DNA from: Dictyophora rubrovolvata
Taxonomy: Eukaryota > Basidiomycota > Agaricomycetes > Phallales > Phallaceae
Assembly (NCBI GenBank): GCA_029959195.1
Contig: CP114123.1
Location: 124,001-188,000 of the forward strand
DNA length: 64,000 nucleotides
Reading direction: 5' to 3'
Of the stretch, positions 44,431 to 52,230 are shown in pieces. Position 1 is the stretch's first letter. Every line of letters begins with the position of its first letter. A program made the position numbers and the translations under genes. The notes beneath the pieces are model-generated. The model did no database searches. It worked only from the letters and a program-made list of their open reading frames with translations, and was not told where the DNA came from.

Positions 44431-45155
44431 CTACCTGCTACTGCCGCCCTGTCCATTACTATTAGCCCTCATTCTCTCTCTCTCTCTAACCTCTCTCAGA
44501 TTAGCACGTAACAGCTCCACGACATCCGAAGGCCTAGGCTGCTCTCCCAGCCCAGCCGCCTCGGGGTCACCCATGACAGGAACACCTTCACCGCCGCCAC
44601 CACCACCACCACCAGCTACCATCAAAATATTGGCACTGGGATCAACACTATTCGCAGTCATAGTAGTCCGATGTGTAAACTTCCTCATTGCGCTCTCAAA
44701 CAACTCCTCCTCTTCAAGTTCTGCGACTCGTTTCCGCAATGATGTCATGACTTGTTCAAATAACTCTAGTAGTAGAAAATGGTTATTTAATGGACAAAAT
44801 GAGCGCAATAAAACATGGAACATTACCTCTCTCTTGAGCAGGAGACGTCGGAACAGGTAACAAGACCGAAACAGGCTCGACATGAGGTTGTTGGAACGAA
44901 GGCCAAATTCCGTTATCCTCCATAACCCACTGCTCAAACTCCTGATCCTACATCCCCGCCAATAATCAGACGATATGCAATCAACGTCTAAAAAGCACGC
45001 ACAGTCCAATCCCAAGTCTTAGCTTTCGCATCTCCTCTTGCATCTTCCCAAAAACTATTGTCATCAAATTCTTCATCTGTTATATCTCGAGGAATGTGCA
45101 CGTCAGGTGGTAAATAAACTGGGTCAGGTAAATGGATCGGATGAGTTGAGCTCAT
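44431..45155 (-). CDS. Conserved-looking hypothetical protein with acidic N-terminus and coiled coil
   Basis: Not recognised. The ATG at 45155 gives MSSTHPIHLPDPVYLPPDVH and an acidic block (DITDEEFDDNSFWEDA). An intron starting GTGCGT after WDWT joins to DQEFEQWVMEDNGIWPSF. A second intron leads to ELFEQVMTSLRKRVAELEEE, which looks like a coiled coil, followed by a Gly run (about eight Gly) and a charged C-terminus (LREVRERERMRANSNGQGG), with stop at 44431. The length is roughly 195 residues. Well-defined introns and the lack of in-frame stops argue for a real gene. A role as a small nuclear or scaffold protein would be a guess. Confidence 0.65.
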
Positions 45156-45419
45156 GTTACGAGACAAAGAAGTTGCCAAAAAGGTGAGACGAGTCCCAGC
45201 TCCGCCTCACTGACTTAACTGCCACTGACGCGTCCACAAGACACCACAACACCCACATCCGTCCAGTGGACGATAATAATAGGAAATCTAACATTTATTC
45301 GCTAGTATTCATACAAATCATACAGCAACAGAAAAAACGAACATAAAACATAGAAAACAAAAATGCATAATTTTGAGATAAAAGTCCGACAACAAACAGC
45401 ACACATTTTGATTAACTCC

Positions 45420-48400
45420 TCAACCCGAACACATCAAACAAGCCTCCTTGTTTTCAATAGAACAATACAATTTCGCTTCTTCCAATTCTCGTTCACGTCG
45501 TCGTTGCAAAGTAGCCGTGAACTCGGGATCTTCAGAAGCAGCTTTAGCTGTTCGTTCGTCAAGCCATGCTGGTACGGCAGCTGAAGAAGTCGAAGCCGAT
45601 GTAGACGCGGACTCTATCAGCACGGAGCTTGACGACTCTTGCGCAATACTAAGCTTCTTCATCTCACTAGTAGTAGCTGCGACAGACGTTTCTACTTCTG
45701 GTTTTGGTGATGGAGAGGGTGTGGGCATGGTAGCGCTAACTTGTGGCTGCGGTTGAGCTGGAGCTTGGGGCTGCGACTTTGGCTTCGGCTCCTGAGGAAC
45801 GGCTTCCTTCTTCTTCAAATAGGATTGATCAACGGTGAATTGAATGGCTTGCGCAGCAGGTCTTGTACGAAGATAGCTAAAAAGGAAAGAAAGAGCCCGA
45901 TAAGAAACAGAAAATAGGAATTTGACAATAGACTTACTACATGCCAGTCTTCAACCCTCTACGCCACCCATAAAAGTGCATACTTGTCTAAGGATTGAAG
46001 GTTAGACGAATCACACTCGGCACAACAAAACGCAACAACGCACCAACTGATTTTTCGTCGGAGCCGCCAAATGAACATTCAAACTTTGACTCTGACAGAT
46101 AAAAGCACCACGATCTGCAGCAAGATCGAGTACTTTCTTCTGGCTGATCTCCCAAACCGTCTTGTAAATCGCTTTGACATCGTCAGGAATCTCGGGGATG
46201 GTTTGGACGGAACCTTGCAAAAACCAATCAATGACCAAGAAAAAATAAGAACCGATAAGATTTCCAAACATACCATTATTAGCGATAATCTTATTCCTCA
46301 TATCATCGTTCCAAAGTCGAAGTTCAACAAGTTCCTTAAGCAACCACGGACAAACGACCTGGAATTCTCCAGCCAAAACCCGTCGAGTGTAAATGTTGCT
46401 AAACATAAATGAGCAACGTGAACCTTCCATCGCAACGAAATCATACATACCTAGTATAAGGCTCGAAACACTCGTTGAAGCCCAAAATCTGACTGGTAGA
46501 AGCCGTAGGCATAGGAGCGCACAACAACGAATTCCGCAACCCAACACGCTGTACACGCTCCTTCAATCCATCCCATTCCCACAGCGAACTAGGCGTAACA
46601 CCCCACAGATCAAACTGCAGCTTTCCTTCACTAGCCGGACTGCCTTGGAACGTCTCGTATGGCCCATCCGTCTCCGCTATATCACAACTTGCTTCAACAG
46701 CCGCATGATAAATAGTCTCGAAGATTTGAACGTTAAGTATCTTAGCTGCTTCGGAGTCGAAGGGCATGTGAAGCGCCATGAATGTATCCGCAAGACCTTG
46801 CACACCGATTCCGATGGGACGGTGGCGCATGTTAGATTTGTGAGCTTCGGGTACAGGGTAGTAGTTGACGTCGATGATACGGTTCAGATTGAATGCGACG
46901 ACTTTCGCTACGTCGTGCAGCTTTTGGAAATCGTATTTACTCGTCTTGGTATCGATAAAGCTAGGTAGGGCCAGTGACGCCAAGTTGCAGACGGCTACTT
47001 CGTCAGGAGACGAGTACTCGATGATCTCTGTGCAAAGATTCGACGACTTGATCGTTCCCAAGTTCTTTTGATTCGACTTAGCTACATAAAAGAAGAGACG
47101 TTAGCCAAATACAAGTCGTATAGCAAAGAAAACGCACGCACCATTTGCAGCATCTTTATAACACATAAACGGGCCACCAGTTTCGATTTGCGAATCAAGA
47201 ATGGCAAACCAGAGCTTCTGCGCTTCAACGGTCTTCTTCGCACGCCCTTCACGCTCGTAACGTTCATACAACTCCTCAAACTCGGCTCCATGAACCTCTG
47301 CAAGACCCGGAGCCTCATTCGGACAGAACAAAGACCATTTTTTGTCCTCTTGCACCCGTTTCATGCTTAACATAAGTTCAGTACTTAAAGTCTTAGTGTT
47401 GAATGAAAACGACTGACAAAAGATCGGAAATCCAGAGTGCGTAGAAAAGATCACGGGCGCGAACTTCTTCTTTACCATGGTTCTTTCTGAGATCGAGAAA
47501 TTCAAAGACATCGGAATGCCAAGGCTCTAAGTAGATCGCAAAAGCACCAGGTCGTTTGTTACCACCCTGATCGACGTAGCGTGCTGTAGCATCGTATGCC
47601 CGAAGCATGGGCACAATGCCATTGGAGTACCCGTTAGTACCCGCGATGTATGACCTAAAACAACGACAAGAGTTAGAAAGAGGCCATGTCAAACACGGAG
47701 CTTAATCATACCCAGTAGCTCGGATATTATGAATACTCAGCCCAATACCACCGGCAGTCTTGGAAATCATAGCGCATGTCTTGAGCGTGTCATAGATACC
47801 CTCAATGGAGTCATCCTTCATGCAAACGAGGAAACAAGAAGATAGCTGCGGATGGGGTGTGCCAGCGTTGAATAGTGTGGGACTGGCATGGGTGAAAAAA
47901 CGTTGGCTCATAAGATGGTATGTTTCGATGGTGCGGTCAATGTCGTTGCCGTGGATACCAACGGCGACACGCATCAACATGTGTTGAGGACGCTCAGCGA
48001 CGCGTCCGTCAAGGCGGAGGAGGTAGGATCGTTCGAGCGTTTTGAAACCAAAGCTACAGGCAGACTGTTAGTTTCAATCAGCGCGGATAGCTTCTCAACA
48101 GGTACGTACAAATTGTAGTCAAAGTCTCTGTTATAGACTATAGCAGAATCAAGCACTTCCGCATTCTTGCGAACGACTTCGTATGTGAAGTCAGATATTA
48201 GACTAGCAGGTTTTCCGTTCTTCGGGTTAACTGTGCCCCAGCAATCAGAGGGAACGCACAAAAGAAGAGCGCAATAAGCACAACATACCATATCGGTACA
48301 AATCTTCAACGACTTCGCTGAATTTCTTCTTAGTTTCTTTGTGCAAGTTGGAGATGGCAATACGTGCGGCCAGGATGGCATAGTCAGGATGGCTGGTGGT

Positions 48401-49016
48401 AAGATAGGCTGCTGTCTCAGCGGCGAGGTTCTATTTGGTGCGGCGTCAAAACCCCGGACCAATCAGAATGGATAAAATGCCACGCAGGTACGTACGTCTA
48501 ATTCTACGGTTGTAACACCTTGGTAAACACCGGATATAACTTTCTTGGTAATTCTTGAAGAAAGTGTGAGATGCTGTGAGGCAAGTTATCCTAGACACTC
48601 ACTCAATAGGGTCAATATGGTCCATGTCTAGACCGTAACATAGCTACGACGCGTCAATTAAACGCGACGACGGATAATAGTACGGATTATAGACATACTT
48701 TGCTGATTCTTGAGGTGATCTATGAAATCAAGTCAGAATGTCGTTAGTGCCGACGAGACGCGTCGGGTCTTACCTTGTCAAACGCTACGCGTTCCTTCTA
48801 TATAGCTATGGTTCAGAAACAGTTACATTATCCATAGAGTTTTTGACTTACACGTCTACAAAAGGACGATTTGAGACGCGTTACAATGTCTGTACACAAA
48901 GGAAAACATACCCATCTGATTACACGACAAACGCGTATGAAGGGGGAAAAAGTAAATAAAAACACGTCGGATGACAACACGAAACACTACCAACCTCGTT
49001 TATAAACAAAAGCCAT
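45420..49016 (-). CDS. RNR1: Ribonucleoside-diphosphate reductase large subunit
   Basis: Class Ia ribonucleotide reductase alpha subunit; makes dNDPs from NDPs in the cytosol with the small subunit. Exon 1 (48995-49016) MAFVYKR, then two 4-nt exons (48912-48915 and 48852-48855) and a 24-nt exon (48774-48797) together read [18 protein letters not shown], matching the N-terminal ATP-cone start of the family. Next are [21 protein letters not shown] and [13 protein letters not shown]. Catalytic motifs are [80 protein letters not shown] and [12 protein letters not shown]. The C-terminal thioredoxin-reducible pair is CLMCSG at 45420. The exons between the first and last pieces are short. An ACGCGT cluster at the 5' end suggests MBF-type G1/S control. 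Confidence 0.93.
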
Positions 49017-49128
49017 GGGGATACTCCTTCAGGAGACGCGATTATCGGTATAGAAGGAGATATAAATTGTAGTTGGGATATCGAGATAGTGGTGGTTCCG
49101 GTCTGAAAGGCTGAAAGGAAAGACGCGT
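48649..49128. promoter_or_regulatory. Cluster of six ACGCGT (MCB-like) sites at the RNR1 5' end
   Basis: Perfect ACGCGT hexamers occur at 48649, 48758, 48787, 48876, 48931 and 49123. One lies upstream of the start codon, one in exon 4 and four in the first introns. By chance one would be expected about every 4 kb. In yeasts the MBF factor binds this element and drives G1/S genes, including the RNR large subunit. Confidence 0.6.
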
Positions 49129-49237
49129 CAATTTAAGAGATGGCGTCAATCTGGAAAAAAAGCTTACCCAAGCAAAACATGTCACGTGTGTGGGACCAAT
49201 GCGACAAGGAGCTACGGAAGGATTTCTCAGTAAGGAA

Positions 49238-49322
49238 GGCGCGATAGCTCAGCTGGGAGAGCGACAGACTGAAGCGTGCTTCGGCCATCTGCAGGTCCCC
49301 GGTTCAATCCCGGGTCGTGCCA
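49238..49322 (+). tRNA. tRNA-Phe (GAA), with 12-nt intron
   Basis: A cloverleaf can be drawn: acceptor stem GGCGCGA/TCGTGCC with A discriminator, D arm GCTCAGCTGGGAGAGC, anticodon loop CTGAAG-A with anticodon GAA, and T arm CCCGGTTCAATCCCGGG. A 12-nt intron (CGTGCTTCGGCC) sits between positions 37 and 38, the standard place in eukaryotic nuclear tRNAs. The mature length is 73 nt before CCA addition. Confidence 0.93.
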
Positions 49323-49609
49323 ATTGTTTTTTTTTCCTTTTCTTCTGCTAAGCTCCGCCCGACAACTCTCATTACTCGAAGGGACAGCTTGAATGATTAA
49401 ACAGATTAGATGCCATTTCAAGTTTGTGATAGTTCGGCGATGGAGCCGCTGGCATATTGAATTACTATGATGACATTCCTGCCAGATCAGGGTTATCATC
49501 ATCGATATGAACCCACCCCGGTGACAAATGGTTATCATCATCAACTCATTCTGATGAGAAATGGTTAGAAATTGCGTGAAGGGATGAAATGATCAGTGCA
49601 TGCCCATCT
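49323..49609. other. Spacer between the two tRNA-Phe genes
   Basis: Contains a T-rich run directly after the first tRNA (49325-49335), a plausible RNA polymerase III terminator, and no other recognisable feature. Confidence 0.5.
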
Positions 49610-49691
49610 GGCGCGATAGCTCAGCTGGGAGAGCGACAGACTGAAGTAATTCGGAATCTGCAGGTCCCTGGTTCAATCCCGGGTCGTGCCA
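49610..49691 (+). tRNA. tRNA-Phe (GAA), with 9-nt intron
   Basis: Same tRNA as at 49238, except for the intron, which is TAATTCGGA (9 nt), and one T-stem base (CCTGG), giving a G-U pair. The mature length is again 73 nt. The two genes are 287 bp apart in the same orientation, suggesting a local duplication in which only the intron diverged freely. Confidence 0.92.
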
Positions 49692-49898
49692 CGTTACTTT
49701 TGCCTGCTACTGGTGTATTATATGTATGTCCCTCCGAGTTTCACTCTAATAATTATTTTTGCATATCCAAATGACCCGCTTAGAAAACAAATAAACTATT
49801 ATTTGATATCAAGAAACAGGAACTTGAAATACAAGTTTCAAACAATAACACGAATACAAATATTACTGGGATCACAGATTAACAGTCCAGTCTTATGT

Positions 49899-52230
49899 TT
49901 ATAGAAGATTAATTTGTTCTAAATGACGTCTTAAAACCAGATCTTCGACTAAGGTATTCAATCAGCTGTACGATATAAAGCAAGAGGCTAGAAGGACATA
50001 CTTGCTGCAAGAATTACTATCATTTGTTGAGTATCCTAGTAGAAGCCCATTTAAGCTATTTAGACTACAATCAATAAGGACCGTTAAACGTACGGTAGCA
50101 CAAGTTATGTGAGCATAGAAAAGTCGTGGTGCTGGCGATAGTTCTCGTTGCACTGCTTTGAACTTGGTTTTCAGATCTGTGAACGAGTCTCAATGTTCCA
50201 TATTCTACTTTCACCAACAGAAAGCTTACATTTAGAAACACCCTCTCGTGTATTTTTTCCAGTATAACTCTTGACGTAGCGTCCAAACCTCACACCAGAC
50301 TCGAGCTTCTGTTGCAAGATGTCGACTTTGTTCAACAAGAGTACGAAAGAAACCGAAGCAAGCAGCTTAGAGGCGCAGATTGTCTTCCAGAGTGTAAAAG
50401 TGTCCTCCTAATACAGCGTCGAAGATTTAGTAAAACCAAGGTCGGAACTCGTGTCAGATGCGTTTTCATACCAAACGATTCACTTCTGGTGCTTCGGCTA
50501 ATGTTTGATCAAATGCGCTCATCGGGGCTAGGAAGACAATTGCGTTGACTGAATGAAACAGTCAAATCAGAAGTGTTTCATTTCTCACTTCAACGTAGAT
50601 TGCGTACCATCGTCAAAAAACGACATCCAAGCATGTCGCTAAGAAAACTCCATCAATATCATCTGCGTCAATTCAAAAAGTTGCCACAGAGCACCTCACC
50701 TGGCTTCGCTAAATCAATTTGAAAATGGAAGATATGATGAAAGATTAAAAGTAACGATCCCCTAAGGCTGGTTAAAACTTACTGATCCTCCCACGTCATA
50801 GATTCTGAATTCCGTGGCTCCGGTGTTCTCTCGATCTAGTAGCCCTGAGATCATGGTGCAATATATCTATCAGCATCAAGTGATATAGAGAATGAACGCT
50901 TACTCGCACGGACGGTGAATATATGTTCTGTAACTCCGACAGTTTTTAGTCGTGCGCGCAATATATCATCTAATTGAAAGGAGGAACAGAAAATTAATAT
51001 CGGTTGAGGCGTGATTTGACCTAAAGCTACGATCAATTAGGTTCCTTTTACGTACCATCTGTTGGTTTAAAGTTTGGCACTGCAATTCGCTCGAGCTCAT
51101 CCAAGAAGCTGAGTCAAAGAAGTGTTAGTATATTGAAAATGGAAGTCAATTGACGTACTATTTGCTGACTTCTTCCATACCAACTCTGTATTCTTTCATG
51201 ATCTTCCTAACGACAGGATCACACCATAGCTGAATCATATCTTCTTTGCAAGCTGATAGAACTCTAGCCAGCGATTCATCATCTTCATTGGAACCATCCT
51301 GGGATGATGTCTCTCTAGCCCGTTTCCACGAGTATCCGTTCACTCTCAGCTCATCATGCGATCTCGATGATGACAAGATATTGTTGAACAATGGAGAACG
51401 GCGAGGTGAAATGGGCGTTGCAGGAAGTGCAAGAGGTTTGAATCGTTTCGTCAATACATTTTCCAACTGGCGTAATGGTCCGAGACGCATCATGAGTCGA
51501 CGATGCTCGGAAGTAAGCACAAGAGGATCGTTCGCAAAATTGCCATTGTCCCTTCCATTTTCTCCGTATTCCCTGTCAATGTCAATAGCAGAGGACGATG
51601 GGAGATGTTGTTGGGTATCGATCTCCTCTTCTTGTTCGAGTGGAGAGGTAGGGGGTGTCAACTGGCTCGGAAAGTCGTGCCGGTTGAGCACGTCAAGTAT
51701 TATGCCATAAGAGCGGACGACATTTAATTGGCAAACAGAACGCCAGACAGCTCGTTCTCTGTCAAAAGCACTGGGGTCGTATTTTCTTTGGAAGTCTGGA
51801 TGGCCGGGGATATCAAAATAAATTCTGACTTAGAGGAGCAGGATAGCGACGTACTCTTCAAAACAGTACTTTTTCCTAAAGAACGGTAAGACTTTAGAAC
51901 TTCAGCAAAACGGGGATATGTTACCGGATTCGCTTTGTCCCAGTAACAACATCTTGACACATTTGATTTTTTTTGAAGTCTGAGACTCTTGACGAAGCAA
52001 TTTGTCGATATCCTCGCTAACTTTCAGAGCCTCCTTCTCTAATTGTATTCGGATATCGGCTTCCTCTGGTGTCTCTCCTAGTCGTCGACATATAGGTAAA
52101 ACAAACTCAAACCGGGATGAGATGAAATAACAAACGGCATACCTAGAGGTGGCGCGATCGCGCGAGACAAGGGATCGTCATCTCGATCCGTGCTTGTGAA
52201 CCCAATTGCGCTCGATCGAATAGACACCAT
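49899..52230 (-). CDS. Atypical G-protein alpha subunit (basidiomycete type, with insert)
   Basis: Heterotrimeric G-protein alpha-like GTPase. The ATG at 52230 gives DPLSRAIAPP, then GETPEEADIRIQLEKEAL. The P-loop is KMLLLGQSESGKSTVLKNF, split by an intron, in place of GxGESGKST. The helical domain starts AFDRERAVWRSVCQLNVVRS and carries an acidic, Ser-rich insert of roughly 100 residues (51300-51600). Switch II reads IYDVGGS-RSQ-RHAWMSFFDD; the catalytic Gln of DVGGQ is replaced by Ser. Next are AIVFLAPMSAFDQTLAEA, LLLNKVDIL (NKxD) and YAHITCATDTQ. A 53-nt intron leads to the tail EDLVLRRHLEQINLL, with stop at 49899. No N-terminal MG myristoylation signal is seen. Its coupling to receptors is unknown. 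Confidence 0.9.

Follow-up and report, generated by a model that had tools for sequence, protein, structure and literature searches.

Predicted tandem 4-nt exons in the ribonucleotide reductase gene RNR1 of Dictyophora rubrovolvata

The gene for the ribonucleotide reductase large subunit (RNR1) of D. rubrovolvata is predicted to contain two consecutive 4-nt exons, ATGG and ACGT, close to its 5' end. The analysis of the window, i.e. the whole 64-kb stretch of DNA under study, confirms this observation at the sequence level, and the coordinates, exon and intron lengths and borders are exactly those that an earlier note on this DNA had given. ATGG and ACGT are very probably genuine, constitutive micro-exons that would be handled by ordinary intron-defined splicing and may have arisen by the subdivision of introns.

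Structure of the 5' end of RNR1

The features of the gene on which the analysis bears are as follows.

45420..49016, minus strand: RNR1 coding region, ribonucleotide reductase large subunit, 17 exons, 16 introns, 890 aa
48995..49016, minus strand: exon 1, 22 nt, MAFVYKR and the first base of the Asp codon
48916..48994, minus strand: intron 1, 79 nt, GTTGGT..ATCAG, weak donor, phase 1 in the Asp codon, ACGCGT at 48931
48912..48915, minus strand: exon 2, 4-nt micro-exon ATGG
48856..48911, minus strand: intron 2, 56 nt, GTATGT..TTGTAG, phase 2 in the Gly codon, ACGCGT at 48876
48852..48855, minus strand: exon 3, 4-nt micro-exon ACGT
48798..48851, minus strand: intron 3, 54 nt, GTAAGT..TATATAG, phase 0 between Arg and Lys
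48774..48797, minus strand: exon 4, 24 nt, KERVAFDK, ACGCGT at 48787
48699..48719, minus strand: exon 5, 21 nt, ITSRISK
48603..48643, minus strand: exon 6, 41 nt

The 890-aa product aligns with yeast Rnr1 (1zyz) over residues 3-890 with a score of 1300 bits (phmmer), and both proteins end in C-x-M-C-S-G, which contains the C-terminal cysteine pair of class I large subunits. A genome search with a piece of RNR1 returned five matches, all of them at one locus. An assembly error or a decaying copy mimicking micro-exons has next to no chance of accounting for such a gene: its matches fall at a single locus, its 17 exons are open from end to end, the alignment to the yeast protein includes the C-terminal cysteines, and we found nothing in favour of this explanation.

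The coding region starts with six consecutive short exons, measuring 22, 4, 4, 24, 21 and 41 nt, the second and third of which are the micro-exons. As internal exons of 4 nt each, they lie within the limit of 15 nt or less that we used for micro-exons, and their flanking introns are canonical GT-AG introns of normal length, introns 1 to 3 measuring 54-79 nt versus 49-65 nt for the other 13. They are also needed for the conserved protein, as KRDGRK is recovered only with both of them. Across the micro-exon junctions, the predicted spliced mRNA contains AAACGAGATGGACGTAAGGAACGC.

We enumerated the GT-AG products that start with the ATG at 49016 and reach exon 4 by way of up to four introns of 30-250 nt each. 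Among the 31 products that are open and in frame, a single one encodes DGRK, which bears out the earlier claims that the conserved N-terminus requires the 22-nt exon, ATGG, ACGT and the 24-nt exon to be joined and that no other combination gives DGRK in frame. With GC donors allowed, the DGRK product is one of 49. KRDG is kept in 9 of the 31 products, and thus there are alternatives on paper that lack only part of DGRK. The placement is also unique: when one to three introns of at least 30 nt were put elsewhere, the same mRNA was never obtained. We also shuffled the 197 intervening bases with dinucleotides preserved, the terminal GT and AG fixed and introns of at least 45 nt. The needed 8 nt were supplied by two micro-exons in none of 20,000 shuffles, and by one 8-nt exon in 1 of 20,000.

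Using a splice-site matrix trained on RNR1 introns 4-16 only, we ranked the 29 GTs and 10 acceptors of the region. The inner borders, described earlier as consensus-like, indeed come out on top: GTATGT after ATGG and GTAAGT after ACGT are the first and second of the 29 GTs, and TTGTAG before ACGT is the best of the 10 acceptors. With 2.31 bits, the donor of intron 1, GTTGGT, is weak and takes fifth place among the 29 GTs; of the 10 acceptors, that of ATGG comes fifth and that of exon 4 sixth. Introns 1 to 3 contain no CTNAY branch site; GTAAC is found 25 nt before the end of both intron 2 and intron 3.

Spliced alignments were performed with a custom script, using four fungal reference proteins at three intron costs each. 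The 4+4 arrangement was picked in 11 of these 12 runs; the exception, with the Ceratocystis reference at the highest intron cost, has a different first exon and omits ACGT. With the Schizosaccharomyces pombe protein as reference, 4+4 was picked at all four minimum-intron settings. A single 8-nt micro-exon, ATGGGTAT, produced by sliding the donor by 4 nt and joined to exon 4, would also give an open, in-frame product that retains KRDG, but one that reads KRDGYKERV and lacks the conserved Arg. It would need a 110-nt intron and the donor GTTTTC, which scores -4.8 bits versus 10.18 for GTATGT, and it was picked in 0 of the 12 and 0 of the 4 runs. We consider this arrangement very improbable. Two obligatory 4-nt exons are the reading best supported by the enumeration, the shuffles, the splice-site scores, the spliced alignments and the proteins of relatives described below.

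Mis-splicing is predicted to be costly. Skipping ATGG, ACGT or both leads to a stop at codon 13, 13 or 14, respectively, and retention of intron 1, 2 or 3 to a stop at codon 10, 19 or 18, respectively. Since the 8 nt complete the Asp-Gly-Arg of KRDGR and an early stop follows in each of the skips and retentions tested, both micro-exons must be included to make the protein. For the question of how a spliceosome adapted to short introns copes with exons too small to be bound at both ends simultaneously, an obligatory pair of 4-nt exons in an essential gene would provide a compact natural test.

The N-terminus in relatives and the probable history of the introns

As relatives, we collected the best 120 of 7998 proteins, namely 110 gene models and 10 mRNA-like proteins. 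The latter come from the sources lgn or jgi, and their ORFs run without interruption along contigs of 2.7-3.2 kb, which suggests that they represent transcripts. Among these best 120 of 7998, all nine mRNA-like proteins that have an N-terminus contain KRDGRKE, which gives indirect support to the inclusion of the micro-exons in mature mRNA. In the gene models the motif is present in 27 of 110 (p=1e-5, Fisher test), several species occurring twice among the models, which are therefore non-independent. The other models of this set harbour KRGxRKE (42), KRGRKE (6), KRE (4), KRDxRKE (3) or KRDG followed by an insert (4), and in 24 the motif is of another form or absent. The conserved KRDGRKE is thus missing in 83 of the 110 gene models among the best 120 of 7998, and if the ATGG exon is Agaricomycete-wide, a large share of public mushroom RNR1 models would have a faulty N-terminus.

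The frequent form KRGxRKE can be decoded. It would arise because a gene predictor misses ATGG and slides the donor by 4 nt, from G/GTNNGT to GGTNN/GT; the Gly is then GGT, and x is encoded by NN together with the final base of the original Gly codon. In 35 of the 42 KRGxRKE models, x is one of the residues allowed by the six dinucleotides that occur in the donors of introns 4-16 (P=3e-5 for a background of 0.524), and in the remaining 7 it falls outside this set. Other models are in line with the same exon. KRDGYV, found in two models, would be a read-through into the intron-2 donor GTATGT. Seven models have a non-standard residue before DG, and in six of them this residue is A, S, T or L, which fits a YAG acceptor before ATGG; the Glu of the seventh (P0114) does not fit. 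Moreover, similar errors distinguish models of what look like the same gene: two Psilocybe cubensis models are identical over 899 aa, one with KRGHRKE and one with CADGRKE, and two Abortiporus biennis models are identical over 863 aa, with KRGERKE and SSDGRKE, respectively. Several decodings are possible for the models with KRGRKE (six), KRDxRKE (three) and KRE (four), and the 27 KRDGRKE gene models are compatible with ATGG being separate or not.

These models might instead be taken at face value, with the N-terminus supplied by another start or first exon, or Asp-Gly truly absent as in KRGxRKE, which is after all the form of 42 of the 110 gene models among the best 120 of 7998. Nevertheless, none of the nine mRNA-like proteins with an N-terminus in that set has KRGxRKE, x mirrors the donor dinucleotides in most of the models concerned, and identical genes have been annotated both ways. 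In the RNR1 of D. rubrovolvata itself, this form, i.e. the in-frame 4-nt donor shift that we infer for the models of relatives, runs into a stop at codon 9. With the enumeration covering products from the start codon at 49016, we give this explanation very little credence. In much of the Agaricomycetes, ATGG is probably an exon in its own right that has been misannotated, a view of its conservation that comes from decoding the errors of gene models. The KRGxRKE signature could serve as a simple finder for other missed 4-nt exons, because a GTNNGT donor hides exactly the four missing bases.

The models also bear on the ACGT exon. Among the best 120 of 7998, the Arg is lost as well in 8 of the 9 models from Phallomycetidae and Auriculariales versus 5 of the 74 other faulty models (p=3e-7), and four of those five are plain truncations. 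We take Sphaerobolus, Ramaria, Gautieria and Hysterangium to be Phallomycetidae, and Auricularia and Exidia to be Auriculariales. The exception that keeps its Arg is a Sphaerobolus model (P0002). In Clathrus columnatus, of the Phallales, the protein P0254 begins with M-KERVAFDK, which is the start of exon 4 in D. rubrovolvata. Intron 3, and hence the ACGT exon, is probably present in Phallomycetidae and Auriculariales, and the exon seems to be limited to them. For intron 1, an ORF assigned to Malassezia by its similarity to annotated Malassezia proteins (P0255) reads through a sequence sited exactly at the position of this intron. Intron 1 thus probably predates the Agaricomycetes.

Together these comparisons suggest how intron subdivision might have generated the micro-exons. 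The old step would be the interruption of the Asp codon by a phase-1 intron. ATGG would then have been set apart by a phase-2 intron located 4 nt downstream, probably in an Agaricomycete ancestor, and ACGT by a phase-0 intron after a further 4 nt, as seen in D. rubrovolvata and probably present in Phallomycetidae and Auriculariales.

Among the best 120 of each protein search, we found no transcript of D. rubrovolvata or a closely related species with a complete N-terminus. The mRNA-like protein of the nearest relative (P0001, 94%) starts at Met32 and the junctions are therefore not covered. Its contig, in which about 320 nt lie outside the ORF, may be truncated or may retain an intron at an incompletely spliced 5' end. 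A pattern made of exon 1 plus its donor had no matches in viral contigs or in genome contigs. A scan of viral contigs for mushroom RNR1 DNA gave 80 loci, nine of which we looked at closely: five match from residue 4 on, uninterrupted at the place of the micro-exons, and four stop short of the N-terminus. One 4.6-kb IMG/VR contig (L064) carries two tandem partial RNR1 matches.

The micro-exons could also be real and their inclusion incomplete and regulated, mis-spliced RNA being degraded so that splicing gates RNR1 and the supply of dNTPs. The stops reached within 19 codons by all skip and retention products tested, the weak sites of intron 1 and the transcript-like P0001, devoid of its first 31 residues, are consistent with this scenario. 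Nevertheless, constitutive splicing of short introns accounts for everything seen, and we regard regulated inclusion as unlikely.

ACGCGT boxes around the micro-exons

The same region harbours a group of boxes resembling the MCB cell-cycle element.

48649..49128, no strand assigned: cluster of six ACGCGT boxes (MCB-like), six in 480 bp

One box lies upstream of the gene (49123), four are in introns 1 (48931), 2 (48876), 4 (48758) and 5 (48649), and one is in exon 4 (48787). ACGCGT is found near the 5' end of RNR1 beyond chance. The window contains 24 sites versus 9.5 expected, random placement of these 24 sites matched six in 480 bp in 1 of 100,000 trials, and the other 18 sites never number more than two per 480 bp. 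Furthermore, all five GACGCGTC palindromes of the window (45227, 47999, 48648, 48757 and 49122) are in RNR1 or at most 200 bp away from it.

We looked at the same motif in ten replication loci with Pfam hits, i.e. RNR2, seven MCM hits, PCNA and thymidylate synthase. Of their 15 sites, 14 precede the first Pfam hit on its 5' side by no more than 1.5 kb. The density is 0.93 per kb versus 0.28 per kb in control loci (P=1.5e-4), with three of the ten loci devoid of ACGCGT and one MCM gene giving six of the 14 sites. The MCM locus L122 on C1 has six ACGCGT within 1.4 kb upstream of its MCM domain.

It is thus probable that candidate cell-cycle boxes of RNR1 are located in the very introns that set the micro-exons apart. 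The introns may persist partly because of the MBF-type boxes that they carry, and the array would provide a testable reason for keeping costly introns. A stronger proposal makes the 5' end of RNR1 a combined control module, in which the binding of cell-cycle factors to a dense MBF-box array and the co-transcriptional splicing of the micro-exons would take place on the same 480 bp, any slip in splicing would lead at once to a stop and the dNTP supply would be gated at both steps. We hold this to be improbable.

Two near-identical tRNA genes are located upstream of RNR1, at 49610-49692 and about 49238-49321. ARAGORN in bacterial mode calls only one of them, as tRNA-Leu AAG; judged by eye, both are presumably tRNA-Phe(GAA) genes with short introns of differing sequence. 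An Rfam search of 45000-49900 gave no match at gathering thresholds.

Recognition of the micro-exons and comparison with known systems

The earlier note had asked how tandem micro-exons in an essential gene are recognized. The question is real, but the case is less exceptional than suggested, as the flanking introns are ordinary and tiny exons exist elsewhere. Introns 1 to 3 would behave as ordinary short fungal GT-AG introns whose ends are paired across the intron, and since they are ordinary in size, such recognition could suffice. Their removal is probably sequential, because U1 and the factors of the 3' splice site cannot share a 4-nt exon; the same argument for sequential removal is made in PMC4674806 for a 1-nt exon.

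With the same script and in the same genome, a 6-nt exon, TTGCAG, was found at the same position in all four actin genes checked (L110, L111, L112 and L113). The smallest internal exons are of 16 nt in beta-tubulin, 37 nt in Ran, 19 nt in a Rac/Rho gene and 57 nt in Cdc42, whose spliced alignment still contains a stretch with a stop. Among the papers listed for micro-exons together with ribonucleotide reductase, Coprinopsis or basidiomycetes, none is apparent that describes the tandem micro-exons of RNR1.

The nearest cases come from other Agaricomycetes. Gene models of Phlebia radiata are described with exons down to two nucleotides (PMC6540522), and the shortest exon reported for the P450 genes of P. 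chrysosporium is of 6 bp (PMC1184071). They resemble RNR1 as Agaricomycete gene models with short introns and exons of 2-6 nt. They are presented in those accounts, however, as general features of gene models, without a tandem pair traced across a clade.

In plants, 1-nt exons are described in APC11 and VPS55, and rice has adjacent exons of 5 nt and 12 nt (PMC4674806, PMC8831610). Like those of RNR1, these exons are tiny, coding and conserved, are often missed by annotation with misread N-termini as a result, and can adjoin one another. The plant micro-exons are RNA-verified, whereas the tandem 4-nt exons of the fungal gene are known here from sequence. The Xlr2 gene of Trichoderma provides a fungal micro-exon required for a working protein; as described, that exon differs in being of 20 nt, alternatively included and regulated by glucose (PMC11121469).

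Stwintrons are comparable in that short adjoining introns are removed consecutively by intron definition. According to the description in PMC5639578, they leave no exon between the introns, in contrast with RNR1, where 4 coding nt are left each time. We rejected a stwintron reading of RNR1, since 8 coding nt remain between the introns and their placement is unique.

Lastly, the boxes find their closest counterpart in Cryptococcus, also a basidiomycete, in which ACGCGT is reported in the promoters of replication genes (PMC5137879) and an MBF-like protein, Mbs1, controls the induction of RNR1 under replication stress (PMC9431586). Both the motif and the gene are the same, but the Cryptococcus motif is described in promoters, whereas four of the six boxes of D. 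rubrovolvata are intronic and one is exonic. Micro-exons are a known kind of feature; the conservation signature in relatives and the MCB-like boxes in the same introns go beyond the earlier note.
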